Positions 49,884-64,000 of a DNA stretch of 64,000 bases are shown one piece after another; position 1 is the stretch's first letter, and every line of letters begins with the position of its first letter. The notes beneath the pieces were generated by a model, which was not told the origin of the DNA, made no database searches, and saw nothing but the letters and a program-made list of their open reading frames with translations. This DNA is from Desulfobulbus propionicus (lineage in GTDB: Bacteria; Desulfobacterota; Desulfobulbia; Desulfobulbales; Desulfobulbaceae). The translations under genes were made by a program, and so were the position numbers. The stretch lies in assembly GCA_002748755.1 (NCBI GenBank), contig PDTD01000016.1, forward strand, positions 1 through 64,000, in the 5' to 3' direction.

Positions 49884-50093
49884 TGGCCCCCAAAAACTGG
49901 ACAATGTGGTAAGCTATAAGTCAGACCACATTCAAGAGGACCTGACAATGGGTAAAAAACGCAAAACACACAGTCCACAGTTCAAGGTAAAGGTTGCTTG
50001 AGCAGCCATTCAAAACGACGAAATTCTCTTGAGGATAAAACTCCGGATGCGGTCTACTTTAGTTTGCCTTGCCCGTTCGCCGAGGCTGCCTGA
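49884..50093 (+). mobile_element. Internally deleted IS3-family element
   Basis: It begins with an IS3-like terminal repeat tggcccccaaaaactggaca (49884-49903). An OrfA start follows at 49948 (MGKKRKTHSPQFKVKVA, then an in-frame TGA at 49999 and AAIQNDEI). About 30 bases later another frame gives DKTPDAVYFSLPCPFAEAA and TGA (50091-50093), the typical C terminus of IS3 OrfB. Nearly all of both transposase genes is missing, so this is a deletion derivative of about 200 bases that could only move with help. The right terminal repeat was not found. Confidence 0.75.
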
Positions 50094-50102
50094 TGCCTAT
50101 TA

Positions 50103-50270
50103 TTAGTTTTCTGCTCTCAGGGCTTGTAGCTTATCCCACCCATCAGGCTGTCCAATCAATTGGGTCCACCACCGTTTTCCAGCGCCAAAGCTGCCAGCCG
50201 CCCTTATCAATTCATGTCTTGCGATCAAGAGTTCAGGGAAGCGGTAAGACCCGCGTGGCCAAAAACATGC
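50103..50270 (-). pseudogene. Unidentified protein fragment next to the IS3 remnant
   Basis: The minus strand reads RFPELLIARHELIRAAGSFG, then GAGKRWWTQLIGQPDGWDKL and QALRAEN before a stop at 50103-50105. It looks like the end of a real protein, but I cannot name the family, and its upstream continuation runs into the ribD coding region. Most likely debris from a mobile element. Confidence 0.35.
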
Positions 50271-50280
50271 GACCTGCGCC

Positions 50281-51393
50281 TTACACATGCTCAGGCCGGA
50301 TACCCTTGATGAGAACATCGTCACCTAACGGCAACACCTCAGTGATGGAAAATCTCTCTGCGGCTGACAACTGGTGACAACCATACCCCTGGACTATGCC
50401 TTGACCTTGTGGACCAATAAAAAAAGGCGCATAGAACAGATTAATTTCATCCACCAGCTCCTGGTTGAGAAAACTACCGTGGACATGAGCACCACCTTCC
50501 ACAAGAACAGAAACCACATTCTGCCGACCCAGCCAGGTCAGAATACTGTTGAGATCCAGGAAACCAGTTTCAGGAACCCTGTTCACTGAAACCAATCTGC
50601 ACCCTTGTTGTTTCAATGCGTCTTTTTTTTCTGCGAAAGTATCCTGGGCATGAAAAATAACCGTGTCGGCATTGGAGTTTTGATGCAACATGTTAGCTTG
50701 GGGAGAAATCCTCAGGCGGCTGTCCAGTACCACTCTCAAGGGATCCCTCTGTGGGGAATGATGAAGACGAGTGGTCAAACTCGGGTTGTCGATGAGGGCC
50801 GTATTTGAGCCGATGAGTATGGCATCTACCTGATTTCGCAACTGATGTACGTAGTCATGGGACTCTGTCCCGGTTATAGTACCACCCTCGCCTTTTGCAT
50901 AGGTTATCTTACCATCCAGACTCAGACCTGCTTTCAGAATGACCCACGGTAGTTGGGTTTGGCTGTACTTGATAAACGGATAGACAAGCGCTTTGCACTC
51001 CTGTTCCAGAACGCCCGCTTCTACGGCGAGTCCCTTGTCCTGAAGAAATTTTTTTCCACCCCCCAGAACATGCGGGTTTGGATCAAGCAGACCGATCACA
51101 ACACGGTCCAGGCCAGCATCAAGAATAGCCTGGGTACAGGGAGGGGTTTTACCGCTATGATTGCAGGGCTCAAGGGTGACATAAATGGTTGCACCGGCGG
51201 TGTTACCCTTTGCATCTAAAATAGCATTGACTTCTGCGTGGGGTTCTCCTGCCCGGTGATGATAGCCGCAGCCGACCACGACATCATCACGAACAATGAC
51301 AGCACCGACTGCTGGATTGGGGCTTGTCCGTCCCAAGCCTTTACGGGCCTCTGTTAGGGCTAATGCCATATAGTGAGTGTCTTTTTCAGTCAT
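50281..51393 (-). CDS. ribD: Bifunctional riboflavin deaminase/reductase
   Basis: RibD deaminates and then reduces the pyrimidine intermediate of riboflavin synthesis. The 370-residue protein has the zinc deaminase motif GEPHAEVNAI and TLEPCNHSGKTPPC, and the reductase domain from about residue 150 (WVILKAGLSLDGKI, DAILIGSNTALIDNPSLTTR, VLVEGGAHVHGSFLNQELVDE). I start at ATG 51393, preceded by ggga; longer versions are unlike the family. Downstream rib genes are absent; an IS3 remnant follows. Confidence 0.94.
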   Translation of the reverse strand: MTEKDTHYMALALTEARKGLGRTSPNPAVGAVIVRDDVVVGCGYHHRAGEPHAEVNAILDAKGNTAGATIYVTLEPCNHSGKTPPCTQAILDAGLDRVVIGLLDPNPHVLGGGKKFLQDKGLAVEAGVLEQECKALVYPFIKYSQTQLPWVILKAGLSLDGKITYAKGEGGTITGTESHDYVHQLRNQVDAILIGSNTALIDNPSLTTRLHHSPQRDPLRVVLDSRLRISPQANMLHQNSNADTVIFHAQDTFAEKKDALKQQGCRLVSVNRVPETGFLDLNSILTWLGRQNVVSVLVEGGAHVHGSFLNQELVDEINLFYAPFFIGPQGQGIVQGYGCHQLSAAERFSITEVLPLGDDVLIKGIRPEHV

Positions 51394-51680
51394 GATGATG
51401 TCCCGACAAATGGAAAAGGTACTGCTCCGGACCTCGGATGAACAATTTATCGGAAGATGAGACAACCCAGGGCCATCCCGTTCATCTGTTGGTCTCTTCT
51501 TGTCACTAAAAAAATACTCATCAGAAATTGAGGCTCAAGGTGGAGATGACGCTGGAAACAATCGTCACATTTGTAAATCAGCCGGGTGCTAGCGAGAAAG
51601 TGTACCAGTACGAATTTGCAAGGCTGAGCATCGGTACCTAAAAAAGAAGGTTTGCGGACTCCAACCTGAGGCCTGTCCTT

Positions 51681-52142
51681 CTATCCTCCTGGTTTATCGA
51701 GAAAACTTTTCAACTCCTCCATAAACTCATTCACATCTTTAAACTGTCTGTACACAGAGGCAAAACGTACGTACGCCACCTCATCCAAAGCAGGCAAATC
51801 CTCCATGATCCATTCACCAACCTGGTTGGTTGGAACCTCCTTACCACCAACATCTTGCAAACGCAGCTCGATACGATCGACAAAGGAATCAATATCGGTC
51901 ATACTCACAGGCAGTTTCTCACACGCTTTTTCCAGGCCGGCAATAATTTTGCCGCGATCCCATGCCTCACGCCTGCCGTCTTTTTTTATCAACATAGGGA
52001 GCATGAGTTCAATACGCTCATAGGTGGTAAAACGATGTTCGCATACACTGCATTCCCGTCTTCGGCGAATGATGGTTTTATCCTTGTTTGTCCGAGAGTC
52101 GATAACCCTGTTTTCCAGATGGCTGCAATAGGGACACTTCAT
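51681..52142 (-). CDS. nrdR: Ribonucleotide reductase regulator
   Basis: NrdR is the ATP/dATP-sensing repressor of ribonucleotide reductase genes. The 153-residue protein has the zinc ribbon [15 protein letters not shown] and [13 protein letters not shown], followed by the ATP-cone ([20 protein letters not shown]). The nrdR-ribD order on the same strand is common in this lineage. A 287-base gap separates it from ribD. Confidence 0.96.
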
Positions 52143-52483
52143 GGGGATTCCTTACTCCTGACGTGCTCATCAGCATTTCTGATGACTCTTCACTTTTTTA
52201 AACCAACAACAGTCTGTTTACATGGATACGTATGAAAAAAAGGAGAAAACACTATTGGTTGGATCATTTTTCTCCGCATCCATACGCACAGGGCACCAAA
52301 TTAGGGCTTTTTTTGATCACAGAGCATACATGCGTCCCAGGACCGCCTGCAAGCAGTTAAGGGAAAAAAACAGCATAAGAAGATGGATATATGCCATCCG
52401 AGTAGTAGTATTATATTTAATACGATGAGACCCTGATAAGCAATCCAAATCATACCTACCTCATTTGACCATAGCTGCAGGCT
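52143..52483. other. Intergenic region between rpiB terminator and nrdR
   Basis: No gene is seen. In related gene orders glyA often sits between rpiB and nrdR; nothing like it is present here. The segment is AT-rich, and ctgataagcaatcc at 52434-52447 weakly resembles a left terminus of the dispersed repeat. The nrdR promoter should lie near 52143-52250, but I cannot point to it. Confidence 0.45.
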
Positions 52484-52525
52484 AAATAAAAAAGCCGGTC
52501 CTTGTTATATGCAAGGGTACCGGCT
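52484..52525 (-). terminator. Rho-independent terminator after rpiB
   Basis: On the minus strand agccggt and accggct (plus an inner cctt/aagg part) form a GC-rich stem with a small loop, followed by TTTTTTATTT. It lies 29 bases after the rpiB stop and closes the lipid synthesis operon. Confidence 0.88.
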
Positions 52526-52553
52526 GGCATGCCGCAATCTGGGATACTCTGGA

Positions 52554-52979
52554 TCAATCCATTTTTTGTAGTCTCCTCTGGTGCCTACCTCCTGTAAACT
52601 CGGTAGTCATCCAGGTTTTGACCATATCCAGAGCCACTGCGTCCCCCAGTACGCGCTCACCCAAGCAGAGTACATTGGCATCATTATGCTCGCGGCTCAT
52701 TCTGGCGGTGAAGTTGTCATGGCATAGAGCGGCGCGAACACCTTGAAACCTATTCGCACTTATGCTCATACCAATACCAGTGCCACAAACAAGAATACCT
52801 CTCTCTGCATCGCCTGCGAGAAGTTCTTGACAAAGTTTTTGGGCGAAATCAGGATAATCTACTGATTCTGTTGAAGTACAACCACAGTCTTCCACCCTGT
52901 GACCTTGTTGCTCAAGAAAGGTTACAATTTTTTGTTTAAGACTGAATCCGCCGTGATCACTACCTATGAGAACTTTCAT
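52554..52979 (-). CDS. rpiB: Ribose 5-phosphate isomerase B
   Basis: RpiB interconverts ribose 5-phosphate and ribulose 5-phosphate. The 141-residue protein has GSDHGGFSLK, the catalytic cysteine in GILVCGTGIGMSISANR, and EHNDANVLCLG. It is the last gene of the fatty acid operon, 19 bases after fabF; this fabF-rpiB link is common in deltaproteobacteria and probably not functional. Confidence 0.94.
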   Translation of the reverse strand: MKVLIGSDHGGFSLKQKIVTFLEQQGHRVEDCGCTSTESVDYPDFAQKLCQELLAGDAERGILVCGTGIGMSISANRFQGVRAALCHDNFTARMSREHNDANVLCLGERVLGDAVALDMVKTWMTTEFTGGRHQRRLQKMD

Positions 52980-52998
52980 GCATACTGGATTTCAAAAC

Positions 52999-54240
52999 TT
53001 AATCAGTGAACTTCTTTAAAACAATAACCCCATTGGTCCCCCCAAAACCAAAGGAATTGGACAGAGCTACCTGGGGATTGGTTTCTCTGGCTGTCAGAGG
53101 CACATAGTCGAGATCGCATTCCTCTGACGGCTCATCCAGATTGGCTGTCGGTGGAATAATCCCGGTGTGCATGGTCAAAGCCGTAAAGGCAGCCTCAATG
53201 CCACCTGCTGCGCCGAGCATATGGCCTGTCATGGACTTGGTGGAGCTGATTGCAAGTTTATAGGCATGTTCCTGAAAAACAGTTTTTATGGCATAAGTCT
53301 CGCATTTGTCATTCAGGGGGGTAGATGTCCCATGGGCGTTGATGTAATCAACCTCTTCCGGGTTCAGTCCGGCATCATTCAGCGCCATCTGCATGCATCG
53401 AGCAGCACCTTCCCCATCCTCAGGCGGCGCTGCAATATGGTAGGAGTCACTACTTTGGCCATAACCGATTATTTCAGCATATATCCTCGCTCCCCGTTTT
53501 TTTGCCTGCTCCAGTTCTTCCACAACCAGAATACCGGCGCCCTCTGAAATAATAAAACCGTCACGTCCCTTATCAAAAGGTCGAGAGGCAACGCTTGGAT
53601 CATCATTTCGTGTGGAAAGAGCTTTCATAGCACTGAAACCAGCCACGGCCAGCGGACAAATCACGGATTCGGCCCCGCCGGTAAAAACGATATCGCAATC
53701 ACCGTAGGCAATATGCCGAAAAGCCTCTCCCACTGCATGCGTGCCCGCTGCACAGGCGGTAGTTTGGTTCAAATTCGGTCCCTTGCTCCCCATTCTCATG
53801 GAGATTTGTCCAGAAACCATATTGGGTATCACCCTGGGAATGAAAAACGGAGTTACCTTACGCGGTCCCCTCTCCTGCAGTATCTGATGATACCTTTCAA
53901 TGGTGGGGAGCCCGCCCATGCCGCAACCCGTTATGACCCCAATCCTCTCACAGTTTGCCGCGTCAATGGTTAAGCCGCTGTCCTGCAAGGCCAGTTCCGA
54001 GGCCGCAATGGCATACTGAACAAACTCGTCCAGATTCTTAACCTGTTTTTTTTCAAACCAGATTTCAGGGTCAAAATCCTTGACTTCGCCAGCAATTCGA
54101 GAGGCGTATCCGCTCGCATCAAACCGGGTAATCGGTCCTATTCCTCCCTGTCCTTCAATAAGCTTGTCCCAGGTCCTATCCGTTCCTGTTCCCAAAGGGG
54201 TAACTAATCCTATACCAGTAATAACGACCCGTCTTTTCAC
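52999..54240 (-). CDS. fabF: 3-oxoacyl-ACP synthase II
   Basis: FabF condenses malonyl-ACP with acyl-ACP in chain elongation. The 413-residue protein has the catalytic cysteine in [18 protein letters not shown] and the two histidines in [11 protein letters not shown] and [12 protein letters not shown] use the GTG at 54240, with gaggga 9 bases upstream, which gives the family N terminus [10 protein letters not shown]; a longer frame adds 27 unrelated residues. It follows acpP after a 177-base spacer that contains a long inverted repeat. Confidence 0.95.
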
Positions 54241-54314
54241 TTGTTTGCTTCCCTCGATTCTCACCACTGGCAGGGTGTATAAAAAATATCGCTGTAAATT
54301 GTCTATTCTCTCAG

Positions 54315-54406
54315 AGCTCACAGACGCCCCTGGAATTGCTGATAGTCTGTCTCAACAAGCCTTCCCCTGAAAGAGGGATAAAAATCGCCCGGGGTGTCTG
54401 TGAGCT
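54315..54406. repeat. 16-bp inverted repeat in the acpP-fabF spacer
   Basis: agctcacagacgcccc (54315-54330) and ggggtgtctgtgagct (54391-54406) are complementary at 15 of 16 positions around a 60-base loop. There is no T-run. Lying between acpP and fabF, it may stabilise acpP mRNA or set the acpP:fabF ratio. Confidence 0.7.
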
Positions 54407-54417
54407 TTGTTTCTATT

Positions 54418-54648
54418 TTACTGGAGTTTTGCTACATAATCGATGGCATTTTGCACAGTAAGGATTTTTTCAGCTTCTTCATCAGGAATTTCAACATCAA
54501 ACTCCTCTTCCATTGCCATAATCAGCTCAACCAGATCAAGAGAATCTGCTCCAAGATCATCTACAAAGGATGCCCCAGCAACTACTTTATCTTTCTCAAC
54601 ACTGAGTTGTTCTACAATTATATCGATCATTTTATCTTCAACAGCCAT
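54418..54648 (-). CDS. acpP: Acyl carrier protein
   Basis: The 76-residue ACP carries the growing acyl chain on a phosphopantetheine at the serine of [20 protein letters not shown]. It is strongly acidic, of standard length, and lies between fabG and fabF as in most type II operons. The cell usually needs far more ACP than enzymes, which fits the RNA structure after it. Confidence 0.97.
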
Positions 54649-54714
54649 TGTATTCTCCTAATCATTGATTGTTTATGTTGTTTTTAGATAAACAGTGCCA
54701 GAAGCCTACGTTCA

Positions 54715-55464
54715 TCAGTTACCCATATACATGCCACCATTCACATGAAGGGTCTGACCTGTGATGTATTTAGCATCGTCTGAAACAAGAAAGGCTACGG
54801 CAGCGGCCACATCGTCGGGCTCTCCGAGAGAACCGAGTGGTATTTGCCTCCGTATAGCCTCTTGGATTTCCGGCTCAAGTCCCTTCGTCATATCGGTAAC
54901 AATGTATCCAGGAGCGACGCAATTAACAGTGACATTGCGTCCTGCCAGTTCTCTTGCCATGGATTTGCTCAAACCGATGAGTCCGGCTTTTGCGGCGGCA
55001 TAATTCACCTGCCCACCATTACCAAGAAAACCAATCACGGATGTCATGTTGACTATACGGCCCCACCTGCTTTTCATCATGGCACGCATTGCGGCTTTAC
55101 TGCAGGTAAAAGCACCTTTTAAATTGGTGTCAAGGACATCCTTCCAGTCCGTTTCTTTCATCCTGGCCATGAGGCCGTCCCGGGTGATGCCAGCGTTGTT
55201 GATCAGGATATCAACGGGACCAAACTCTTTGCTTATCTCTTGCAAGGCCTGATTGACGGCATCGGTATCTCCCACGTTAAAAGGACAAAGAAAGGCCTTA
55301 CCTCCTGCCTTTTCCACAAGAGCCTGTGTTTCTTTGGCAGCCTTTGGGTTGGAAACATAGTTAATTCCAACATGAACGCCCAATGAGGCCAGTCTTTGAC
55401 AGATTGCTCTGCCTATGCCTCGGCTGCCGCCGGTTACCAGTGCTGTCTTGCCTTTAAGAGTCAC
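54715..55464 (-). CDS. fabG: 3-oxoacyl-ACP reductase
   Basis: FabG reduces 3-oxoacyl-ACP with NADPH. The 249-residue short-chain dehydrogenase has TALVTGGSRGIGRAI, NNAGITRDGL, the catalytic Ser in NMTSVIG and YAAAKAG (YxxxK), and ends MYMGN. The start is GTG at 55464, overlapping the end of etfA by 11 bases, so translation of fabG is probably coupled to the ETF gene. Confidence 0.96.
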   Translation of the reverse strand: MTLKGKTALVTGGSRGIGRAICQRLASLGVHVGINYVSNPKAAKETQALVEKAGGKAFLCPFNVGDTDAVNQALQEISKEFGPVDILINNAGITRDGLMARMKETDWKDVLDTNLKGAFTCSKAAMRAMMKSRWGRIVNMTSVIGFLGNGGQVNYAAAKAGLIGLSKSMARELAGRNVTVNCVAPGYIVTDMTKGLEPEIQEAIRRQIPLGSLGEPDDVAAAVAFLVSDDAKYITGQTLHVNGGMYMGN

Positions 55465-56650
55465 TTTTCACCTCTCGTATGCGTTTGATAAGAGCAGGAA
55501 GAACTTCATAGAGATCACCTACTATACCATATGTGGCCAAATCAAAAATTGGTGCGTGCTCGTCTCTGTTAATAGCGACAATTACTTCAGATGACTGCAT
55601 CCCCGCTGCATGCTGTACCGCTCCTGATATTCCACAGGCAATATACAATTGAGGACAAACTGTTTTTCCGGTCTGGCCTACCTGGTGAGGATACGGAATC
55701 CAGCCGGCATCGACAGCGGCACGACTGGCTGCCACCGCACCATTGAACTCTTCGGCAAGCTCTTTGATCAGGTCAAATCCTTTTTCCGATGCCAAACCTC
55801 GCCCACCGGCGATCAATGCTTCGACTTCTTGAATATTGACCTTGTCTTCTGCACCTTGCACGGTTTCCAGCACCTCTACCCTGGAGCGTAGCAAGGCAGT
55901 CGGCACTGCAATATGCTCTACGCTTCCGGTTCTCGTGGTGTCAGGTTCAAGCGCAGCCATAACGTTTGGTCGAACAGTTGCCATCTGCGGCCTGGTTTGA
56001 GGACAGGCAATGGTGGCCATGATATTGCCACCAAAGGCTGGACGGGTCTGGAGAAGCATACCGTCTTCTTCCCGTATTTCCAGTTGGGTACAGTCGGCAG
56101 TCAAGCCTGCCCCAACAAGGGTGGCCACAAAAGGGATTACAGCACGCCCCATCGCAGTGGCACCGGCAAGAACAATTTCTGGTTGTTTTTCCTTGATTAT
56201 CTTTTCAAGGATATAACCGTAAGTATCCTCTTTGAATTGGGCAAGGGCCGGATCGTCTACAAGATACACTTTATCGGCCCCCGCATGCTGAAGAGAATCA
56301 GCATGTTGGCCGATGTTATCGCCCAGTAAGACGACGCTCAAGGGAACACCTCTGGCCCGAGCCAGTTTGGTACCAATACCAAGAAGTTCAAAGGTGACCG
56401 AAGCTATACTGCCATGACGACATTCAGCGCACACCATAACACCGGACCACTCGTGGATATCAGTCTGTACTTTTTTCTTGGTGAACTCAATGGACAATGC
56501 TTCGAAATCGCATGCCTCAACACAGGCTCCGCACAGGGTACAGTTATCGTTGGAGACCGGACAGTCGTCTTGTATGGTTATGGCACCGAACGGGCAGGTA
56601 GATTCACAGAGGCCGCAAACGATGCATTTGTCACAATCAATTTTCAACAT
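55454..56650 (-). CDS. etfA: ETF alpha subunit with N-terminal ferredoxin domain
   Basis: A 398-residue electron-transfer flavoprotein alpha subunit. Residues 1-57 are a 2[4Fe-4S] ferredoxin domain (CDKCIVCGLCESTCPFGA and CTLCGACVEACDFEA). The EtfA domain follows from about residue 70, and its C-terminal FAD-binding part has LIAGGRGLASEKGFDLIKEL, PYPHQVGQTGKTVCPQLYIA, CGISGAVQHAAGMQ and VIAINRDEHAPIF. Ferredoxin-fused EtfA occurs in anaerobes. The fused clusters suggest exchange with low-potential carriers. It overlaps fabG by 11 bases. Confidence 0.94.
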   Translation of the reverse strand: MLKIDCDKCIVCGLCESTCPFGAITIQDDCPVSNDNCTLCGACVEACDFEALSIEFTKKKVQTDIHEWSGVMVCAECRHGSIASVTFELLGIGTKLARARGVPLSVVLLGDNIGQHADSLQHAGADKVYLVDDPALAQFKEDTYGYILEKIIKEKQPEIVLAGATAMGRAVIPFVATLVGAGLTADCTQLEIREEDGMLLQTRPAFGGNIMATIACPQTRPQMATVRPNVMAALEPDTTRTGSVEHIAVPTALLRSRVEVLETVQGAEDKVNIQEVEALIAGGRGLASEKGFDLIKELAEEFNGAVAASRAAVDAGWIPYPHQVGQTGKTVCPQLYIACGISGAVQHAAGMQSSEVIVAINRDEHAPIFDLATYGIVGDLYEVLPALIKRIREVKSDS

Positions 56651-56703
56651 AGCAGATGATAATGGTGAAAGAAATGTGGTGTCAGGCTCTTGAGCAACAC
56701 TTT

Positions 56704-57483
56704 TTACAGGTAGGCTTGAAGGCTTTCCACCAGTTGTGCCACCTGCTCTTCAACCGTGCCGGTAAATATCTGTCGATCACCTCGAGGTTCGGGTGAAAAG
56801 ACCTTCACGACCTGGGTTGGGGAACCACGTAAACCTATATGATCAGCTGCTGCACCAATATCTTCTGCAGAGAGTGTCTTAATGACGGCCTTTTTAGCCT
56901 TCATTTTACCTTTCAGAGAAGCGACACGCGGCTCATTGATATCTTTAACAACTGTCAGGAGAGCGGGAAGGGGGACCTTGAGTACATCAAAGCCATCATC
57001 CATCATTCGCTCAACCACAAGCGCATCCTGAGAGGAGGCACGGGTTTTCTGAACACAGGTTACAAAGGGCACATTGAGTCGACAGGCAATTCCAGGCCCG
57101 ACCTGAGCGGTATCACCATCTATGGCCTGCTTACCGCATATAGTCAAATCAACGCTGCCCAGTGTTTCAATAGCCTTTGCCAGGGTGTAGCTGGTCGCCC
57201 ATGTATCTGCTCCTGCAAAAGCCCTGTCTGAAACCAGAAAAGCCTCATCAGCTCCACAGGCAATGGCTTCTCGTAGCATGTCCTCAGCCTGCGGAGGGCC
57301 CATGGTAAGCACAGTCACCTTGCCGCCATGCTGTTCTCTGAGGGTAACGGCCTCCTCCAGTGCATGCCGGTCATAGGGATTCATTATGGACTCAACGCCA
57401 TCCCGAGCCAGGGTATTGGTTTCAGGATCAAGGCGTACATCTTTGGCATCCGGGACCTGTTTTATGCAGACAACAATATTCAT
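56704..57483 (-). CDS. etfB: ETF beta subunit, bifurcation-type motifs
   Basis: A 259-residue ETF beta subunit. It has the family MNIVVCIKQVPDAKDVRLDP, NPYDRHALEEAV, TMGPPQAEDMLREAIACGAD, FAGADTWATS and GKQAIDGDTAQVGPGIA. The last two segments resemble those of clostridial bifurcating EtfB, which bind a second FAD, rather than the AMP-binding form in mitochondria. So electron bifurcation or confurcation is possible; this is inferred. It lies 3 bases after acd and 53 bases before etfA. Confidence 0.93.
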   Translation of the reverse strand: MNIVVCIKQVPDAKDVRLDPETNTLARDGVESIMNPYDRHALEEAVTLREQHGGKVTVLTMGPPQAEDMLREAIACGADEAFLVSDRAFAGADTWATSYTLAKAIETLGSVDLTICGKQAIDGDTAQVGPGIACRLNVPFVTCVQKTRASSQDALVVERMMDDGFDVLKVPLPALLTVVKDINEPRVASLKGKMKAKKAVIKTLSAEDIGAAADHIGLRGSPTQVVKVFSPEPRGDRQIFTGTVEEQVAQLVESLQAYL

Positions 57484-57486
57484 GGA

Positions 57487-58635
57487 CTAGGCGTACTCCT
57501 TGTTGAGTTCCTGGCCAATAACGTTGCGTTGAATCTGATTTGTCCCTTCATAAATCTGAAGAATTTTTGCATCGCGCATCATCTTTTCCACAGGATATTC
57601 TTTCATATACCCATAGCCACCAAGCACCTGAACAGCGTCAGTGGTCACTTTCATCGCCACATCAGTTGCAAAAACCTTGCACATGGAAGATGCTTTGGAC
57701 ACGTTCTTAGGGTGGTCGTCAATATGTCGTGCCGCTGCATAAACCAGGGCCCTGGCGGCTTCAACCTGAATAGCCATATCAGCCAGGATATGTTGTACCG
57801 CCTGAAAGGCAATAATGGGTTTATCAAACTGAACACGCTGTTTGGCATAGGAAACAGCTTCATCAAGAGCCGCCTGGGCAAGTCCGACACCAAGAGAAGC
57901 TATCCCGGGTCTGGAAATGTCCAGGGTTTTCATCACGGTGATAAACCCGGTGCCCTTCCTCCCTACCAGCCGGTCTTTGGGAATTCTACAATTATTGAGG
58001 ATAAGCTCACGGGTTGCTGAGGAGCGGATGCCCATTTTGTTTTCTTTTTTCCCATAGGAAAAACCGGGGTCTCCGTCTTCAACGATAAAAATAGAAGCCC
58101 CGCGGGCTCCCTTTTCTGGGTTTGTCTGGGCGACTATCGTGTAAATCTGTGCTGCACCGCCATTGGTAATCCACTGTTTTGTCCCGTTCAGAACCCACTC
58201 ATCCCCATCAAGTATGGCCGTGGTCTGGATGCCCGATGCATCACTGCCGGCGTTTGCTTCGGTCAGTCCGAAAGCAGCATATTTTTTTCCTTCAGCGACT
58301 TGAGAACAGTACTTTTCCTTCATTGCATCACTGCCGGCAAAAAGAATAGGAAAGAGACCTAAAGCGCTGGCTGCAAAACTGGTTGCCACCCCCACACACC
58401 CTCGTGCCAATTCTTCCATGGCCAGTACGATGTCAAAACATCCCCCGCCAAACCCACCGTATTCTTCAGGGATAAAAAGTCCGAAAAGATCTGCTTTGGC
58501 GATATCGTTTAAAATCTCAGCAGGGAATTGATTTTTTTCGTCGAGTTCCGCTCGCACAGGAATGATTTTCTCATTCGTAATTTCCCTGGCAGTATCGACG
58601 ATCATCTGTTGTTCTTCAGTTAAAAAATAATCCAC
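57487..58635 (-). CDS. Acyl-CoA dehydrogenase (Bcd-like) in the fatty acid operon
   Basis: A 382-residue FAD-dependent acyl-CoA dehydrogenase. It has the N-terminal helical domain (TEEQQMIVDTAREI), the FAD/substrate motif FGLTEANAGSDASGIQT and QWITNGG, DKPIIAFQAVQ, and the catalytic glutamate in LQIYEGTNQIQRNVIG. It is close in pattern to butyryl-CoA dehydrogenases. The start is GTG at 58635, 18 bases after fabH. Such enzymes oxidise acyl-CoA or, with a bifurcating ETF, reduce enoyl-CoA. Its place between fabH and the ETF and fabG genes suggests an enoyl-reduction or chain-recycling role. Confidence 0.93.
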   Translation of the reverse strand: MDYFLTEEQQMIVDTAREITNEKIIPVRAELDEKNQFPAEILNDIAKADLFGLFIPEEYGGFGGGCFDIVLAMEELARGCVGVATSFAASALGLFPILFAGSDAMKEKYCSQVAEGKKYAAFGLTEANAGSDASGIQTTAILDGDEWVLNGTKQWITNGGAAQIYTIVAQTNPEKGARGASIFIVEDGDPGFSYGKKENKMGIRSSATRELILNNCRIPKDRLVGRKGTGFITVMKTLDISRPGIASLGVGLAQAALDEAVSYAKQRVQFDKPIIAFQAVQHILADMAIQVEAARALVYAAARHIDDHPKNVSKASSMCKVFATDVAMKVTTDAVQVLGGYGYMKEYPVEKMMRDAKILQIYEGTNQIQRNVIGQELNKEYA

Positions 58636-58653
58636 GAATCTCTCCTTATATGC

Positions 58654-59631
58654 TTACCAACGCACCAGTAACGATCCCCACGTCAGGCCGCCACCAAATG
58701 TGCATAAGGCGACAAGGTCGTTTGCTTGCAGCAAACCTTGCCTATTGGCTTCATCCAAGGCAATCGGAATACTGGCCGCTGAAGTATTGCCGTATTTGTG
58801 AACATTTAAAAAAACTTTTTCCTCCGGCAGGTGTAAACGCTCGCGCAGGTTATGCAAAATTCTTATATTCGCCTGATGCGGAATAAGCAAATCAATGTCA
58901 TCCGGGCGGAGCCCGTGGTCTTGCAGCAGACTCGTTACCGCATTTTCCATCGATCTGACGGCGTGTTTAAAAATATCACTGCCGTTCATACGGATTAGGG
59001 ATCCCTGCCAATCTTCTTCTTTGAGATCTTCATTCTGACTTTCCGGGCTGTCTATGTGCAACAGGTCCCAATATGTACCGTCAGAATGTAATCTGCTGCC
59101 TAAGATGCCACGATCTTCATTTGTAGCAGCGACCACAGCTGCCCCTGCGCCATCTCCAAAGAGTACACAGGTATTACGATCTTGCCAGTCCACCCTGGTG
59201 GAGAGAGTCTCGGAACCGACAACCAGGACCTTCATGTCCGGCTGGCTCTGCACGTAGTGCCGGGCAAGGTCCAGAGCATAGGTGAAGCCGGCACAGGCAG
59301 CATTGATATCATACGCAAAGGCATGAGCAGCCCCTATTTCAGCCTGAACAAAACAGGCTGTGGAAGGCATGATCTTATGGGGCGACACCGTTGCAACGAC
59401 CAGCAAGCTGATCTCTTGGGGGGGGACCTGTGCTGATTCCAGTGCCTGCTTAGCCGCCTGGCTCGCAATCTGATAATTCTGTTCGCCCGGCCCGGCAATG
59501 TGTCGGGTTTTGATGCCGGTTCTGGTAGTAATCCACTGATCAGAAGTATCAACCATCTTTTCCAAATCCTGGTTTGTCAATCTTCTGGAGGGGATACATG
59601 ATCCTGTACCGATAATTACCGCTCTACTCAT
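58654..59631 (-). CDS. fabH: 3-oxoacyl-ACP synthase III
   Basis: FabH starts fatty acid synthesis by condensing an acyl-CoA primer with malonyl-ACP. The 325-residue protein has the catalytic triad: Cys in NAACAGFTYALDLA, His in IPHQANIRIL and Asn in KYGNTSAASI, and ends FGGGLTWGSLLVRW. It follows plsX by 16 bases. fabD, which in many bacteria is next, is absent. Confidence 0.96.
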   Translation of the reverse strand: MSRAVIIGTGSCIPSRRLTNQDLEKMVDTSDQWITTRTGIKTRHIAGPGEQNYQIASQAAKQALESAQVPPQEISLLVVATVSPHKIMPSTACFVQAEIGAAHAFAYDINAACAGFTYALDLARHYVQSQPDMKVLVVGSETLSTRVDWQDRNTCVLFGDGAGAAVVAATNEDRGILGSRLHSDGTYWDLLHIDSPESQNEDLKEEDWQGSLIRMNGSDIFKHAVRSMENAVTSLLQDHGLRPDDIDLLIPHQANIRILHNLRERLHLPEEKVFLNVHKYGNTSAASIPIALDEANRQGLLQANDLVALCTFGGGLTWGSLLVRW

Positions 59632-59647
59632 GAGATGTCCCGTGGCA

Positions 59648-60664
59648 TCAGGCAGTGTCGGCAGTACTGTTCAGCGCTACCAGTATGGATGCATTGACTT
59701 TGTTTTCAACCATATCTGAGGCGACACCTATGGCATTGCGAATAGCAGTAGCATCGGAGCTGCCGTGGCAGATAATGCCCGTACCGTCGATACCCAGCAA
59801 AGGAGCACCTCCGTACTCGGCATAATCCACCTGTCTTTTAAAACCTGCAAAGGCTTTTCGTATCAACAGATATCCCATCTTGGCACGCCAGGTTTTCATG
59901 ATTTCTTTTTTCAGCATCTGCATGGCAGCGTCGGCCAATCCTTCACTGATTTTCAGGGCAATATTGCCGACAAAACCATCACAGACAATCACGTCGACAT
60001 CCCCTCTATAGACATCTCTACCTTCAACATTCCCTATAAACCGCAGTGGACTGCGCTGCAGAAGCGCATACGTGCCTTTAACGAGGGCATTTCCTTTTCC
60101 GGTCTCTTCGCCTATACTGAGCAGGCCGACCCTTGGTTTTTCAATGCCAAGCAGTAAACGGGAACATGAGGAGGCCATGAGAGCAAACTGATAAAGGTGT
60201 TGCGGCCTGCAGTCAACGTTTGCGCCTATGTCCATCAACATCACCGGTCGTTTGAGCGTAGGGAAAAAACTAGCTATCCCAGGGCGAGAGACCCCTGCTA
60301 ACCGACCCAGTTTACGAATTCCGGCTGCAAGCGTAGCACCTGAATTCCCGGCAGAAACAACCGCATCTGCTTTGCCATGCTTAACAAGATCAAATGCGAC
60401 CATGACCGAGGCATCTTTCTTTTTACGGACCCCATCAACCGGTGATTCATCCATGCCGATACAGTCTGGAGCATGGACGATACTCACTCTCTGAGAGCCG
60501 CCGAAAGATGAACCGGCAATGGCCTGAAGCTGAGTCCGAAGAGACTGTTCTTCACCGACAAGAATTACATCGAGACTCTGATTCTCCGATACCGCTGCAA
60601 GGGCACCATGGATAAGGATTTCAGAACCCGAATCGCCACCCATGGCGTCTAGGGCTATACGCAC
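59648..60664 (-). CDS. plsX: Phosphate acyltransferase PlsX
   Basis: PlsX converts acyl-ACP to acyl-phosphate for phospholipid synthesis. The 338-residue protein begins RIALDAMGGDSGSEI and has VVSAGNSGATLAAG, LMDIGANVDCRP and ICHGSSDATAIRNAI. The start is GTG at 60664, with agga upstream. The rpmF-plsX spacer, usually short, is widened here to 642 bases by two dispersed repeats. Confidence 0.95.
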   Translation of the reverse strand: MRIALDAMGGDSGSEILIHGALAAVSENQSLDVILVGEEQSLRTQLQAIAGSSFGGSQRVSIVHAPDCIGMDESPVDGVRKKKDASVMVAFDLVKHGKADAVVSAGNSGATLAAGIRKLGRLAGVSRPGIASFFPTLKRPVMLMDIGANVDCRPQHLYQFALMASSCSRLLLGIEKPRVGLLSIGEETGKGNALVKGTYALLQRSPLRFIGNVEGRDVYRGDVDVIVCDGFVGNIALKISEGLADAAMQMLKKEIMKTWRAKMGYLLIRKAFAGFKRQVDYAEYGGAPLLGIDGTGIICHGSSDATAIRNAIGVASDMVENKVNASILVALNSTADTA

Positions 60665-60864
60665 AATCAGTTCCTGGTTGGTCTATGCCTGGAAGTATTA
60701 CTCGCGTTCACGTCCAGGTTAACTTCGACTCCCGCATGCTGACCAAATCTACCGTAAACATGCAAAGAGGATCGAAATCTCATTTCATTCGTTTATCTCC
60801 GAAGAGACAATCTTGGGAGATACAGCCACAACTGAGCGAAAATCACATTGATGAACAGGGAGTT

Positions 60865-61084
60865 ACCCGTACTTCTCAACAGTGAAGGCGGTGTCAGCTT
60901 CGGTCGTTTACGGGGACGCTTTCTCCTGAGGTAAAGGTGTTGCAAGAAGGCTACCGAAGATGAAGCCGTATAAGCTGACCTGGGGTGACCATTTTGTCAT
61001 AAATGTGCCATTGCTCATTTCCATCAGATGCATTTGTATATACTGTTTCAATAAGACAAAATGGTAATAAGAAATACGGGGCTA
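60865..61084 (+). repeat. MITE-like repeat (copy I, ~220 bp), tandem with copy J
   Basis: The left terminus is acccgtacttctcaacagtg and the right terminus gacaaaatggtaataagaaa, then tacggggctag. Its centre (tcggtcgtttacggggacgc, gctaccgaagatgaagc) differs from subfamily 1 in part. The last four bases, ctag, are also the first of copy J, so the two copies share one terminus. It lies in the rpmF-plsX spacer. Confidence 0.75.
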
Positions 61085-61310
61085 GCCCGAATTTCCCATC
61101 AACTCAGGCAGTCCCAAACTCGGCAGTTTTTGCCAACGCATTATACCTGGGTATATGTGTTGCCAATATACTGCCGAAGGAGGGGCCGCCTGGGCTGACA
61201 TTTGGTGAACATTTTGTCGCAATTCGACTCTGTCAACGGATAGCACATCCATCTGTTTTTGTTCACTTTTTCTCAGACGAGACAAAAAGTTCATGAGAAA
61301 TGTGAGCTAG
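61081..61310 (+). repeat. MITE-like repeat, subfamily 1 (copy J, ~230 bp, best preserved)
   Basis: Full-length copy: gctagcccgaatttcccatc at the left, the palindromic centre cggcagt...tataccTGggtata...actgccg (about 61121-61183), the right arm ctgtttttgttcactttttc and gacgagacaaaaagttcatg, and gagctag at 61304-61310. The rpmF stop codon (61307-61309) lies inside the terminal ctag. No coding potential. It provides the reference for the family. Confidence 0.88.
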
Positions 61311-61495
61311 TTGAGTTCATCCTCAAGCTGGATAATAGTCTTCCCCTTGTACATGCCGCAGCCGCCACAGAGTTGATGCGGTTTCTTAGGCTCACCACAT
61401 TCGGGGCATGACCCAATGCTAGGCCTCGTCAGGGAATCATGGGCTCTTCTCTGTCTGGTTCTTGAACGTGAATGTCTACGTTTTGGTAAGGCCAT
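61307..61495 (-). CDS. rpmF: 50S ribosomal protein L32
   Basis: bL32 is a small zinc-ribbon protein of the 50S subunit. The 62-residue sequence begins MALPKRRHSRSRTRQRRAHD and has the cysteine pairs CPECG and CGGCG, so it is the zinc-binding form. The ATG at 61495 follows a gaggag site. It follows yceD, as usual. Its stop codon TAG coincides with the ctag end of repeat J. Confidence 0.95.
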   Translation of the reverse strand: MALPKRRHSRSRTRQRRAHDSLTRPSIGSCPECGEPKKPHQLCGGCGMYKGKTIIQLEDELN

Positions 61496-61556
61496 AATAC
61501 AATCTCCTCGCTCATTACCGACATCCAGTAGGGTTGCCGGTACTGCCAACAATGGT

Positions 61557-62084
61557 TTACTTCTCTTTTTTTTTGTATTCTGCCAAGATGGCAAAGGGCG
61601 AGTTCCCCGCCTTCACCGTACATTGACAGGGTTCCCTGTTTAGATTTGCACCGCAGTGGCTGCAAATTCCCTTGCACCCTGATGCACAGATTTTCTTCAC
61701 AGGAAGAGATAAAAGAATCTGCTGCCTCAAGACGTCATCAAGATCTATAGACGGCTCATGGAGTTCTATGGTATCCATCTGTTGAGCATCGCACTCAAGT
61801 TCATGAACCTGCCACCTGCTTGTTCCAGCAACTTCAAAAAGCAGGTGGAAGGTGGTGTCTATCACACAGCCATAGGATTCCAGGCATCTATCGCAGACAA
61901 CCTCAGGTACAGCCTGGATGACTCCACTCAACTCAATCTGTTGGTCATTCTTTTTAACCAGCCGGAGTGCAGCTTTCGTCACATGCCCAAAAGAAAGAAT
62001 CTCCTGATCCGTTATAACCCCATTGAGTTCTCTGCACTCATAGAGATACCCGGTTGAAGAAATTTCGTTAAATGTAATACGCAT
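61557..62084 (-). CDS. yceD: YceD/DUF177 family protein
   Basis: A 175-residue protein of the DUF177 family, which is linked to 23S rRNA or large-subunit maturation. It has the typical VCDRCLESYGCVIDTTFHLLF and, C-terminally, SLPVKKICASGCKGICSHCGANLNREPCQC, giving four to six cysteines able to bind zinc. Its position before rpmF-plsX is highly conserved in bacteria. First gene of the operon as seen here. Confidence 0.92.
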   Translation of the reverse strand: MRITFNEISSTGYLYECRELNGVITDQEILSFGHVTKAALRLVKKNDQQIELSGVIQAVPEVVCDRCLESYGCVIDTTFHLLFEVAGTSRWQVHELECDAQQMDTIELHEPSIDLDDVLRQQILLSLPVKKICASGCKGICSHCGANLNREPCQCTVKAGNSPFAILAEYKKKEK

Positions 62085-62680
62085 ACGCCCCTGCCCTCTC
62101 GCCTACATTTCTTATGAAGAAGCGTCTCAAGTTGTTCAAGGAATTTGAAATCAAAAGATATACAGTACCTGGAAAATGGATGGTTTGACGCACTGTTTAC
62201 GAGGGGGCCTGAGCTGAGTCGTAGCCGAATTTCGTCGAAGCCGAAAATAATACACAAAAACTTTAAAGAAAGCCAACTAAAAAAAAGCCTCAATGTGAAT
62301 TCTTTCGTCAACTCATAAACATATAGTTCAGGCCTGGGGCCAAAACTATTTAAAAAACACTGGAATCAGATAGGGTTGTAGCGATTGCGTACAACCACAG
62401 GCACACTTTATACTCATGCAAGAATTGTAGAATGGAACCGCTACAAGGAAGAATCAAGATTGCTTGTATCCAGTATGGTGTAGGACGAACAACTGCAATT
62501 GACTACCCAACACGACCTGTACCCAATAATCTGGAAAAATTAGGCTCCTTTTTGCAGAGCTTCTCTGTTTTTTTAAACTGCGCCTGATCCTATTGTAAGA
62601 ATACTGCCTTGTCCCTCGTATGCGGCCAATCTCAGTCGAGAAACAGAAAAGGTACGTCAAATGAAATCGAGGGTACAGGT
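62085..62680. other. Intergenic region upstream of yceD
   Basis: No gene is recognised in these ~600 bases; small minus-strand frames (62012-62311 and 62454-62774) have no family features. The segment acatttcttatgaagaagcg near 62106 weakly resembles a repeat terminus, but the rest does not match. Promoters for the lipid operon should be here; I see no clear pair. Confidence 0.45.
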
Positions 62681-62724
62681 AAAAAAATCTCTGCTGCCTT
62701 GCATCCTTTTTCCCCTCGCAGAGA
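62681..62724 (-). terminator. Probable intrinsic terminator after mlaA
   Basis: On the minus strand tctctgc and gcagaga (7 perfect pairs, 62718-62724 with 62688-62694) enclose a 23-base loop and are followed by ATTTTTTT. It starts 24 bases after the mlaA stop. The long loop lowers confidence. Confidence 0.65.
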
Positions 62725-62748
62725 GCTACATTGTATGTGGACAGAGGT

Positions 62749-63504
62749 CTAGTCTTCGCTAACAAAACGGGCACGGTTCCTATGTTGATAGCGGTATTGC
62801 ATATACCCGTTTCGCACAGCTATATATGGGTCGAAACTCATTTTTTTTAGGTCATCATATTCGCCCACGTGAAAGGAGAATTGATTGAGCTTCTTGGCGA
62901 CATGTCCTCCCCCTGAGGTGATATAATCATCGGCCCAGGAGTAGAATGGGGCACCGGCGCAAGCATCAAGGATGGCGCCACTGAAATCACGAATGGTAGA
63001 GGAACCGTACAAGGGGACAACCAGGTATGACCCGTCACCTATTCCCCAAACTTCCATGGATTCCCCCAATGAAGCCTCGATCGGATGCAAACTGAATTCA
63101 GTACGAGCGGGGTCGCCTAATCCAAAAACCCCAAAAATCGTGTTGATGGTGAATCGCCCCAGAACTCTTGCCGAATCTTCAAACCTACCTTGAAGAAGGC
63201 AGTTAACGAATCGGACTGGTTCGTCAAGGTTGTAAAAAAAATTGTTAATTATCATTCGAAAATCTGGAGCAACTATTTCGCTGTATGTCCTGACAACAGG
63301 ATCCAGCACGTAGGCATAAGCAACATCGTTAAAGGCGAACATGGCCCTGTTCAACGGCTCCAGTGGGTCAGGAATAGTATCGACAGTCAGGCGTTCTTTG
63401 TAGAAATCATCATCTAGGAAATCCATCTCATTTTCGGCCCGGCATACCACAGGTAACAGAACAAAAAACAGGGGGATGAAAAGAACGCGTACACAGGGGT
63501 TCAT
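62749..63504 (-). CDS. mlaA: MlaA (VacJ) outer-membrane lipid transport protein
   Basis: MlaA takes phospholipids from the outer leaflet of the outer membrane for retrograde transport. The 251-residue protein has a signal sequence (MNPCVRVLFIPLFFVLLPVV) and the VacJ pattern PDPLEPLNRAMFAFND, INNFFYNLDEPVRFVNCLLQ, GVFGLGDPA and YLVVPLYGSSTIRD. The only N-terminal cysteines are C4 and one near residue 21 (VVCRAEN); VVC could be a weak lipobox. I start at ATG 63504, with agga 8 bases upstream. It follows mlaD by 10 bases. Confidence 0.92.
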   Translation of the reverse strand: MNPCVRVLFIPLFFVLLPVVCRAENEMDFLDDDFYKERLTVDTIPDPLEPLNRAMFAFNDVAYAYVLDPVVRTYSEIVAPDFRMIINNFFYNLDEPVRFVNCLLQGRFEDSARVLGRFTINTIFGVFGLGDPARTEFSLHPIEASLGESMEVWGIGDGSYLVVPLYGSSTIRDFSGAILDACAGAPFYSWADDYITSGGGHVAKKLNQFSFHVGEYDDLKKMSFDPYIAVRNGYMQYRYQHRNRARFVSED

Positions 63505-63514
63505 GATAGTTATC

Positions 63515-63964
63515 CTAATCGACTTCACCAAATGCAAATTTGGAGATCAAAGACTCGATATCAACTGCTGACTCCGTATCCAGCAAGACATCGCCCGGTT
63601 TATATATTTCTTCGGCTCCGCCCAGGGATATTTGAATGTACTTGTCCCCGATTATGCCCTGTGATTTCACAGAGGCAATGGAGTCCACAGGAACGCGCAC
63701 ATTTTTGTCGAGCTGCATGCTAATAACTGCCAGTCCCTCTGTACTCAGGACCATATCTCGAACGGTTCCGACATGTACCCCTGAAATCTGCACCTCAGCT
63801 CCAGATTTTACACCTGAAATATTATTGAATTCAGCCTTCAGTTCGTAGGACTGTACACTGGTCAAAAAAGGGACTTCTCCAAGCCTGAAAGCCAGCCAGC
63901 ATAATGCGGCAAAACCAAAAAGCAAAAAAAGTCCGACAAAGATGTCAAATCGAGAATGTCTCAT
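63515..63964 (-). CDS. mlaD: MlaD, MCE-domain lipid transport protein
   Basis: MlaD is the periplasmic MCE ring of the inner-membrane MlaFEDB complex. The 149-residue protein has one N-terminal membrane helix (FDIFVGLFLLFGFAALCWLA) and an MCE domain (LKAEFNNISGVKSGAEVQIS, GVHVGTVRDM, VKSQGIIGDKYIQISLG). Length fits. mlaE and mlaF would be expected just beyond the right edge. Start ATG at 63964. Confidence 0.93.
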   Translation of the reverse strand: MRHSRFDIFVGLFLLFGFAALCWLAFRLGEVPFLTSVQSYELKAEFNNISGVKSGAEVQISGVHVGTVRDMVLSTEGLAVISMQLDKNVRVPVDSIASVKSQGIIGDKYIQISLGGAEEIYKPGDVLLDTESAVDIESLISKFAFGEVD

Positions 63965-64000
63965 CTACAACTCCATAGTGAGAATTGGTTACAAATCAAG

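Follow-up and report, generated by a model that had tools for sequence, protein, structure and literature searches.

The operon

The window, a stretch of 64,000 nucleotides from Desulfobulbus propionicus (assembly GCA_002748755.1, contig PDTD01000016.1, positions 1 to 64,000), carries a fatty acid synthesis operon that includes the gene of an acyl-CoA dehydrogenase (ACAD), acd, and those of an electron transfer flavoprotein (ETF), etfB and etfA. Their products, ACD and EtfBA, probably form an enoyl-thioester reductase dedicated to type II fatty acid synthesis, in which it takes the place of FabI. The source genome (2.0 Mb, 44 contigs) is 90.66% complete.

The order plsX-fabH-acd-etfB-etfA-fabG-acpP-fabF-rpiB on a single strand, described in an earlier reading of the sequence made without database searches (the sequence-only reading), was confirmed: all nine genes lie on the minus strand and match their families (Table 1). 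Gaps of 3-53 bases had been given. The range holds for plsX-fabH (16), fabH-acd (18), acd-etfB (3), etfB-etfA (53) and fabF-rpiB (19) but fails downstream of fabG, since 66 bases separate fabG from acpP and at least 96 separate acpP from fabF. The 11-base overlap of etfA and fabG is as described, whereas the span 54715-59631 assigned to the whole operon takes in fabG to fabH alone. The GTG start of the 440-residue fabF frame is probably too early and the true start downstream of 54321, because the family match starts at residue 29-30. The operon lacks fabD, as had been noted, but the genome does not; fabD was found at G000:C29:51821-52681 (264.2 bits, cut-off 260.9). Here and below, genomes and loci are cited by G and L numbers.

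Table 1. Features of the operon and a FabX/FabK-like flavoprotein encoded elsewhere in the genome
Feature	Position	Strand	Basis
plsX, phosphate acyltransferase	59648..60664	-	TIGR00182, 367 bits (cut-off 243)
fabH, beta-ketoacyl-ACP synthase III	58654..59631	-	TIGR00747, 417 bits (cut-off 292)
acd, acyl-CoA dehydrogenase family, proposed enoyl-ACP reductase	57487..58635	-	three Pfam ACAD domains
Glu363 of ACD, position of the catalytic base	57547..57549	-	invariant in 52 aligned rows
etfB, bifurcating-type ETF beta subunit	56704..57483	-	nearest solved chain 6fah_B (CarD), 267 bits
EtfB RAFAG (RXFXG), residues 87-91	57211..57225	-	role per PMC9232219 (in part)
EtfB DGDTAQVGP, residues 122-130, beta-FAD recognition motif	57094..57120	-	role per PMC9232219 (in part)
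etfA, ETF alpha subunit with N-terminal two-cluster ferredoxin domain	55454..56650	-	nearest solved chain 6fah_A (CarE), 405 bits
EtfA ferredoxin-like domain, residues ~1-55	56486..56650	-	Pfam Fer4, Fer4_7; cysteines
EtfA Arg203 (RPAFGGN), counterpart of the beta-FAD N5 arginine	56042..56044	-	aligned with LctC; PMC9232219 (in part)
fabG, 3-oxoacyl-ACP reductase	54715..55464	-	NF004197, 341 bits (cut-off 332)
acpP, acyl carrier protein	54418..54648	-	NF002149, 115 bits (cut-off 106)
fabF, beta-ketoacyl-ACP synthase II	52999..54321	-	TIGR03150, 649 bits (cut-off 494)
rpiB, ribose-5-phosphate isomerase B, conserved neighbour	52554..52979	-	TIGR01120, 206 bits (cut-off 139)
FabX/FabK-like NMO flavoprotein, four clustered cysteines	L122:4937-6004 (G000:C43)		FabK-model match

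Conservation of the gene order

Three samples were compared, with some genomes common to several of them. The order sample comprised 57 Desulfobulbales genomes including the window's own, from which 55 loci were fetched, 52 of them with acd. From the phylum sample of 297 genomes, 40 loci were picked by hand within the group with fab-type ACD defined below, mostly one per family, and the named-locus sample consisted of the best 80 loci of a longer search. Within the order, EtfA of the window's type is present in 55 of the 57 genomes, its own included; G013 and G055 show ferredoxin-level matches alone. ACD is also present in 55, the exceptions being G008, whose contig ends in etfA, and G055, which is 89% complete. 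The arrangement DUF177-rpmF-plsX-fabH-acd-etfB-etfA-fabG-acpP-fabF-rpiB-nrdR-ribD is kept in the 55 loci as far as the contigs extend. ACD (71-91% identity to the window) and acyl carrier protein (ACP; 72-96%) are the most conserved fatty acid synthesis proteins across the order, followed by FabF (63-82%), FabG (58-81%) and FabH (52-81%).

As to conservation of this gene order across the Desulfobacterota, which the sequence-only reading had put up for checking, acd lies beside fab genes of the same strand in 52/52 loci of the order sample, 38/40 of the phylum sample and 68 of the best 80. Of the two misses among the 40, L167 is at a contig end and L176 (G083) has acd-etfB-etfA with no fab genes nearby. 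The 12 misses among the best 80 are labelled Nitrospirota; in five of these, the sequence available on one side is under 1.2 kb or under 4 kb. In seven other Nitrospirota loci (L237, L238, L244, L248, L250, L252, L256) fab genes do occur near acd. The distance of etfB from acd is at most 0.9 kb in 52/52, 27/40 and 67 of the best 80 loci. The dehydrogenase is the constant part of the system. In 11 of the 40 loci fabD follows acd or etfA, which suggests that fabD belonged to an older arrangement and left the operon in Desulfobulbales.

The dehydrogenase

ACD has the three ACAD domains and the glutamate at the catalytic position that mark the acyl-CoA dehydrogenase family. Glu363 is presumably the catalytic base, and the EG pair at this place is kept in all 170 ACD rows extracted from the loci. 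The nearest solved chain is 5ol2_C (389 bits), ahead of CarC (321 bits). ACD reaches no NCBIfam cut-off; the best model is that of acryloyl-CoA reductase, with 430 bits against a cut-off of 640. In the phylum sample, ACD matches at 1e-100 were obtained in 218 of the 297 genomes. A gap between ~1e-119 and ~1e-129 sets off an upper score group of 146 genomes, the proteins of which are called fab-type ACD. A 59-row tree of the window, 45 out of the 170 fab-type rows extracted and 13 other ACADs from the phylum places the 46 fab-type rows on one side of a branch with a support of 100/100; several of the 13 others have long branches and an unsure placement. The fab-type clade includes six Nitrospirota rows, two of which (L228, L235) have no fab genes nearby, and also L176. 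Fab-type and other ACADs (170 versus 13 rows) are separated by 23 positions, among them R28, K197, K314 and K351, from which no ACP-binding signature is claimed.

Other ACADs are scarce in the order. Exactly one ACAD match at 1e-15 was obtained in 45 of the 57 genomes, including the window's own; ten have more than one and two have none. A single ACAD in most genomes speaks against an ACAD-based beta-oxidation pathway. Apparent FabH-ACD fusions in G012 and G070 (frames of 673 and 744 residues) were rejected as readings of GC-rich neighbouring genes in another frame.

Distribution of FabI and other enoyl-ACP reductases

FabI, searched for with the E. coli protein at 1e-38, was found in 53 of the 297 phylum genomes. 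It occurs in 3 of the 146 genomes with fab-type ACD versus 50 of the 151 without (Fisher p 1e-13), and by family in 1/42 versus 19/53 (p 3e-5), both p values taking no account of shared descent. Among 95 families, a total inferred from the family numbers, fab-type ACD is present in 42 and FabI in 20, with both in a single family. Neither protein was found in 101 of the 297 genomes. FabK exceeds its cut-off in 4/297 genomes, none of them within the fab-type group, and FabL is present in 10/146 genomes of that group. At 1e-30 the FabK model matches in 79/146 genomes with fab-type ACD and 109/151 without. A wider screen (FabI at 1e-38, FabL at 1e-60, FabK model at 1e-30) finds nothing in 59 of the 146 genomes with fab-type ACD, 23 of which are at least 99% complete. 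It must miss some reductases, because it is also empty in 26 of the 151 genomes without fab-type ACD. An NMO-family (nitronate monooxygenase) gene lies between etfA and fabG in L177 (G253), its product 37% identical to the FabX/FabK-like protein described below; the screen did not report it.

The absence of a classical enoyl-ACP reductase, noted earlier for the window, extends at the ortholog level to its genome, in the 90.66% that is available: neither FabI at 1e-30 nor FabL at 1e-45 was found, and the FabK model TIGR03151 scored 175.9 bits against a cut-off of 453. The genome does, however, encode two lesser relatives, a FabI-like short-chain dehydrogenase/reductase (SDR) and a FabX/FabK-like flavoprotein. 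PF12241 (FabV) matches nothing in the 57 genomes and was equally silent in the control set. FabL-like proteins are present in 42 of the 57. The one protein tested passes the curated FabL cut-off (368.5 versus 328), and its best solved match, with 276 bits compared with 162 for the next, is 3oic, an NADPH-dependent enoyl-ACP reductase that we take to be FabL of B. subtilis. The 15 genomes without FabL include the window's own, G006 and G021 (both 100% complete), G012 and G039 (both single contigs), G046 and G052.

In a survey of SDRs in eight genomes, 30 of 45 matches were fetched and read. Three belong to the window's genome: FabG of the operon, another FabG and the FabI-like protein, which has a Y-x6-K motif and scores 166 bits against cut-offs of at least 337. 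The latter two lie outside the window in an Ole-type cluster (L289:2722-14941, G000:C20). This cluster also encodes a ketosynthase III, an alpha/beta hydrolase, an AMP ligase resembling olefin beta-lactone synthetase, an OleD-like reductase, a FabA-like dehydratase, two proteins resembling amine oxidases or phytoene desaturases and a further ketosynthase; the Ole models score below their cut-offs. It recalls the polyunsaturated hydrocarbon and ladderane-like clusters of Desulfotalea psychrophila (PMC2649909, in part). We take it to serve a secondary pathway, but a part in primary synthesis is conceivable. In G052 (100% complete) two SDRs were obtained at 1e-8, and neither FabL nor FabI at the cut-offs used; no Y-x6-K type is among the SDRs read in G052 (2/2) and G039 (4/5). 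Both genomes keep the FabX-like flavoprotein.

The flavoprotein, present in 51 of the 57 genomes, is nearest in the window's genome to 9lt5 and 7e1q (140 bits), labelled 2-nitropropane dioxygenase and presumably FabX of Helicobacter pylori, and scores 129 bits with FabK 7l00. Four cysteines stand at the cluster-ligand places of the best solved match. In FabX the cluster domain stands where FabK has its NAD(P)H domain, and FabX oxidises acyl-ACP (PMC8626469, in part). For this reason the flavoprotein looks like a fair candidate for making unsaturated fatty acids anaerobically and is less likely to be an NADH-dependent reductase. At the level of this search it is missing in G012, G033, G041, G046, G047 and G053, each of which has FabL or a Y-x6-K SDR.

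The electron transfer flavoprotein

The segments GADTWATS and DGDTAQVGP, cited earlier as resembling those of bifurcating ETFs, are present in EtfB, and the 2[4Fe-4S] domain ascribed to EtfA was recovered as two N-terminal 4Fe-4S motifs, with Pfam Fer4 matching in two stretches and 10 cysteines among the first 47 residues. In a comparison with solved structures, EtfB was nearest to CarD and EtfA to CarE; for either subunit the top five solved matches are ETFs labelled as, or known to be, of the bifurcating type, and human ETF follows far behind. DGDTAQVGP, RXFXG, SPT (at 221 in the window's EtfB) and the EtfA arginine were tested by mutation in Ldh-EtfAB of A. woodii, where changing such motifs abolishes or lowers activity (PMC9232219, in part). 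Among 144 extracted EtfB proteins, DGDTxQVG is kept in 138, RXFXG in 139 and SPT, often absent outside the window, in 107. The N5 arginine is present in 131 of 135 extracted EtfA proteins, replaced by lysine in L221, and its motif was not found in L168, L176 and L178. A ferredoxin domain with two clusters is present in 126 of the 135. Some lineages may not bifurcate, since the Fe-S domain is missing in nine EtfAs and the arginine motif in three of these. Bifurcation is probably not universal among lineages with fab-type ACD, because in some of them etfBA lies away from acd or EtfA has no ferredoxin domain.

In five relatives (L092, L093, L095, L096, L097) etfB and etfA are separated by inserts of 1.3-2.5 kb, whose open reading frames resemble, by eye, PIN-type toxins, an AbrB-like antitoxin, a methyltransferase and a TIR-like protein. 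Second EtfA-like matches of 40-45% identity lie at G039:C1:225898-226890 and G052:C12:22931-23788, inside frames of 700 and 552 residues, respectively, which perhaps encode fused ETF proteins.

Proposed function and alternatives

For the flavin module the sequence-only reading had proposed a role in reducing enoyl-ACP or enoyl-CoA, which gains from the conservation of the operon, the near-exclusion of FabI and the small number of other ACADs. Its other suggestion, a recycling of exogenous acyl chains into the FabH/FabF pathway, finds nothing in its favour among the nine operon genes. Judged from these sequence data, the probability that ACD-EtfBA replaces FabI and reduces the enoyl thioesters in type II fatty acid synthesis is roughly 0.7. 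That the substrate is bound to ACP rather than to CoA can be proposed with good confidence, and it would most likely be trans-2-enoyl-ACP. If the complex is a reductase, it would probably be a bifurcating one. NADH would reduce the FAD of EtfB, from which one electron would pass via EtfA's shuttle FAD to that of ACD, where the C2=C3 bond would be reduced, while the other would reach ferredoxin through the pair of [4Fe-4S] clusters in EtfA. The net reaction would be 2 NADH + enoyl-ACP + 2 Fdox -> acyl-ACP + 2 NAD+ + 2 Fdred. The confurcation with NADH and ferredoxin suggested earlier does not fit this direction: enoyl reduction should be NADH-driven bifurcation, confurcation being the acyl-oxidising direction. 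In the related reaction of CarCDE, bifurcation in the reducing direction is the energetically favoured course (PMC5861303, in part). Bifurcation is held less confidently than the reductase role because CarCDE still bifurcates after removal of its Fe-S domain and because the closely related ETF of C. propionicum is non-bifurcating. It is somewhat less likely than not that much of the Desulfobacterota, with some Nitrospirota, has a class of enoyl-ACP reductases in which an ACAD is paired with a bifurcating, ferredoxin-fused ETF, so that chain elongation reduces ferredoxin.

Several findings weigh against a reductase role or its bifurcating form. G055 has neither acd nor such an ETF but does have FabL. 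FabI and fab-type ACD occur together in G250, G272 and G334, all of one family, and the FabI statistics leave shared descent out of account. The genomes without fab-type ACD in which the wider screen was empty, the incompleteness of the window's genome and its FabI-like SDR, the frequency of FabL and the flavoprotein in the order, the short-chain butyryl-CoA types that are the nearest solved ACADs and the non-bifurcating C. propionicum relative point the same way. Since the six genomes lacking the flavoprotein have FabL or a Y-x6-K SDR, no examined Desulfobulbales genome is without every alternative.

In one rival explanation the complex would work in the opposite direction and oxidise acyl-ACP to trans-2-enoyl-ACP, from which unsaturated fatty acids are made anaerobically, as FabX of H. 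pylori does, with FabL, the FabI-like SDR or the flavoprotein as the real reductase. FabL in 42/57 relatives, the flavoprotein in 51/57, the FabI-like SDR and the NMO-family gene adjoining etfA in G253 would suit such a role. It is nevertheless improbable: fab-type ACD excludes FabI, which is no unsaturation enzyme, the flavoprotein with its four-cysteine segment is itself the better unsaturation candidate, and FabL occurs in just 10/146 genomes with fab-type ACD. Action on short acyl-CoA, such as the conversion of crotonyl-CoA to butyryl-CoA, with the operon shared because the complex feeds primers to FabH or serves short-chain catabolism, appears about as unlikely. It agrees with the butyryl-CoA dehydrogenase types among the solved relatives, with acryloyl-CoA reductase as the best NCBIfam model, below its cut-off, and with fabH as the upstream neighbour of acd. 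However, acd stays in the operon where fabH does not adjoin it (e.g. L143, L154, L161, L163), primer supply leaves the exclusion of FabI unexplained and the single ACAD of 45 genomes counts against ACAD-built beta-oxidation. Very little speaks for a conserved neighbourhood devoid of any functional link. The block does contain rpmF, rpiB, nrdR and ribD, yet acd keeps to the fab genes while fabD, etfBA and others come and go, and it tracks the absence of FabI. A reductase in the place of FabI remains the preferred function of ACD-EtfBA.

Relation to known systems

Closest in its ETF is the caffeyl-CoA reductase-EtfAB complex CarCDE of Acetobacterium woodii, which shares the two-cluster ferredoxin domain on EtfA and an ACAD-family reductase of a conjugated enoyl thioester; it differs in that ACD is nearer to 5ol2_C than to CarC and in that the window's genes lie in a fatty acid synthesis operon. 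Bcd-EtfAB, a bifurcating butyryl-CoA dehydrogenase, serves fermentation. The complex of Clostridium difficile (5ol2) provides the closest solved dehydrogenase and an EtfB with DGDTAQVGP, but its EtfA has no ferredoxin domain (PMC9232219, in part). The acryloyl-CoA reductase AcrABC of Clostridium propionicum yields the top NCBIfam models for ACD and EtfA. All three subunits of the window score below the curated cut-offs (ACD 430/640, EtfB 247/475, EtfA 336/600 bits), and the ETF of AcrABC is, as stated, of the non-bifurcating kind. FabI, FabL, FabK and FabV share with ACD-EtfAB the proposed reaction and its metabolic place; they are unrelated proteins of SDR or NMO folds (FabV is SDR-like) that work without an ETF. 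FabX resembles the complex in that it acts on acyl-ACP by flavin chemistry and has an Fe-S cluster (PMC8626469, in part). It differs in its NMO fold, in being a dehydrogenase/isomerase that uses O2 and in having no ETF, and a separate FabX-like protein is encoded in the window's genome.

Bacteria that synthesise their own fatty acids cannot do without an enoyl-ACP reductase, and these enzymes serve as drug targets. The parts of the proposed system are of known kinds; their combination and placement are new to us. No ACAD acting as enoyl-ACP reductase in a fab operon was found among the titles and opening lines of abstracts listed in full-text searches of open-access papers. A review from 2022 on the enoyl reductases of bacteria contains none of the terms acyl-CoA dehydrogenase, electron transfer flavoprotein and ferredoxin (PMC9260719). 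A comparison of fatty acid gene clusters from 2009 places FabI of Desulfotalea psychrophila in an unrelated cluster and does not use the term acyl-CoA dehydrogenase (PMC2649909). If the proposed role is correct, a further, unrelated class of enoyl-ACP reductases exists, which the scores place in 42 of some 95 families sampled from one phylum, and accounts for how these bacteria manage without FabI. It would give an anabolic role to a bifurcating complex of the Bcd/Car type, for which we know of no other anabolic use. Membrane synthesis would be coupled to ferredoxin supply in energy-limited anaerobes, and lipid synthesis would retain part of the energy that organisms with FabI give away. For annotation it would follow that an ACAD with an ETF in these genomes need not signal beta-oxidation.

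Further observations

Promoter-like and terminator-like patterns in 52000-63600 are no commoner than in shuffled sequences, and Rfam gave no match in 50000-64000. The gap between rpmF and plsX (60665-61306) measures ~640 bases here compared with ~12 in the relatives of the genus that were read; it contains, as seen by eye, two imperfect copies of a stretch of ~60 bases that starts with GACAAAATG.

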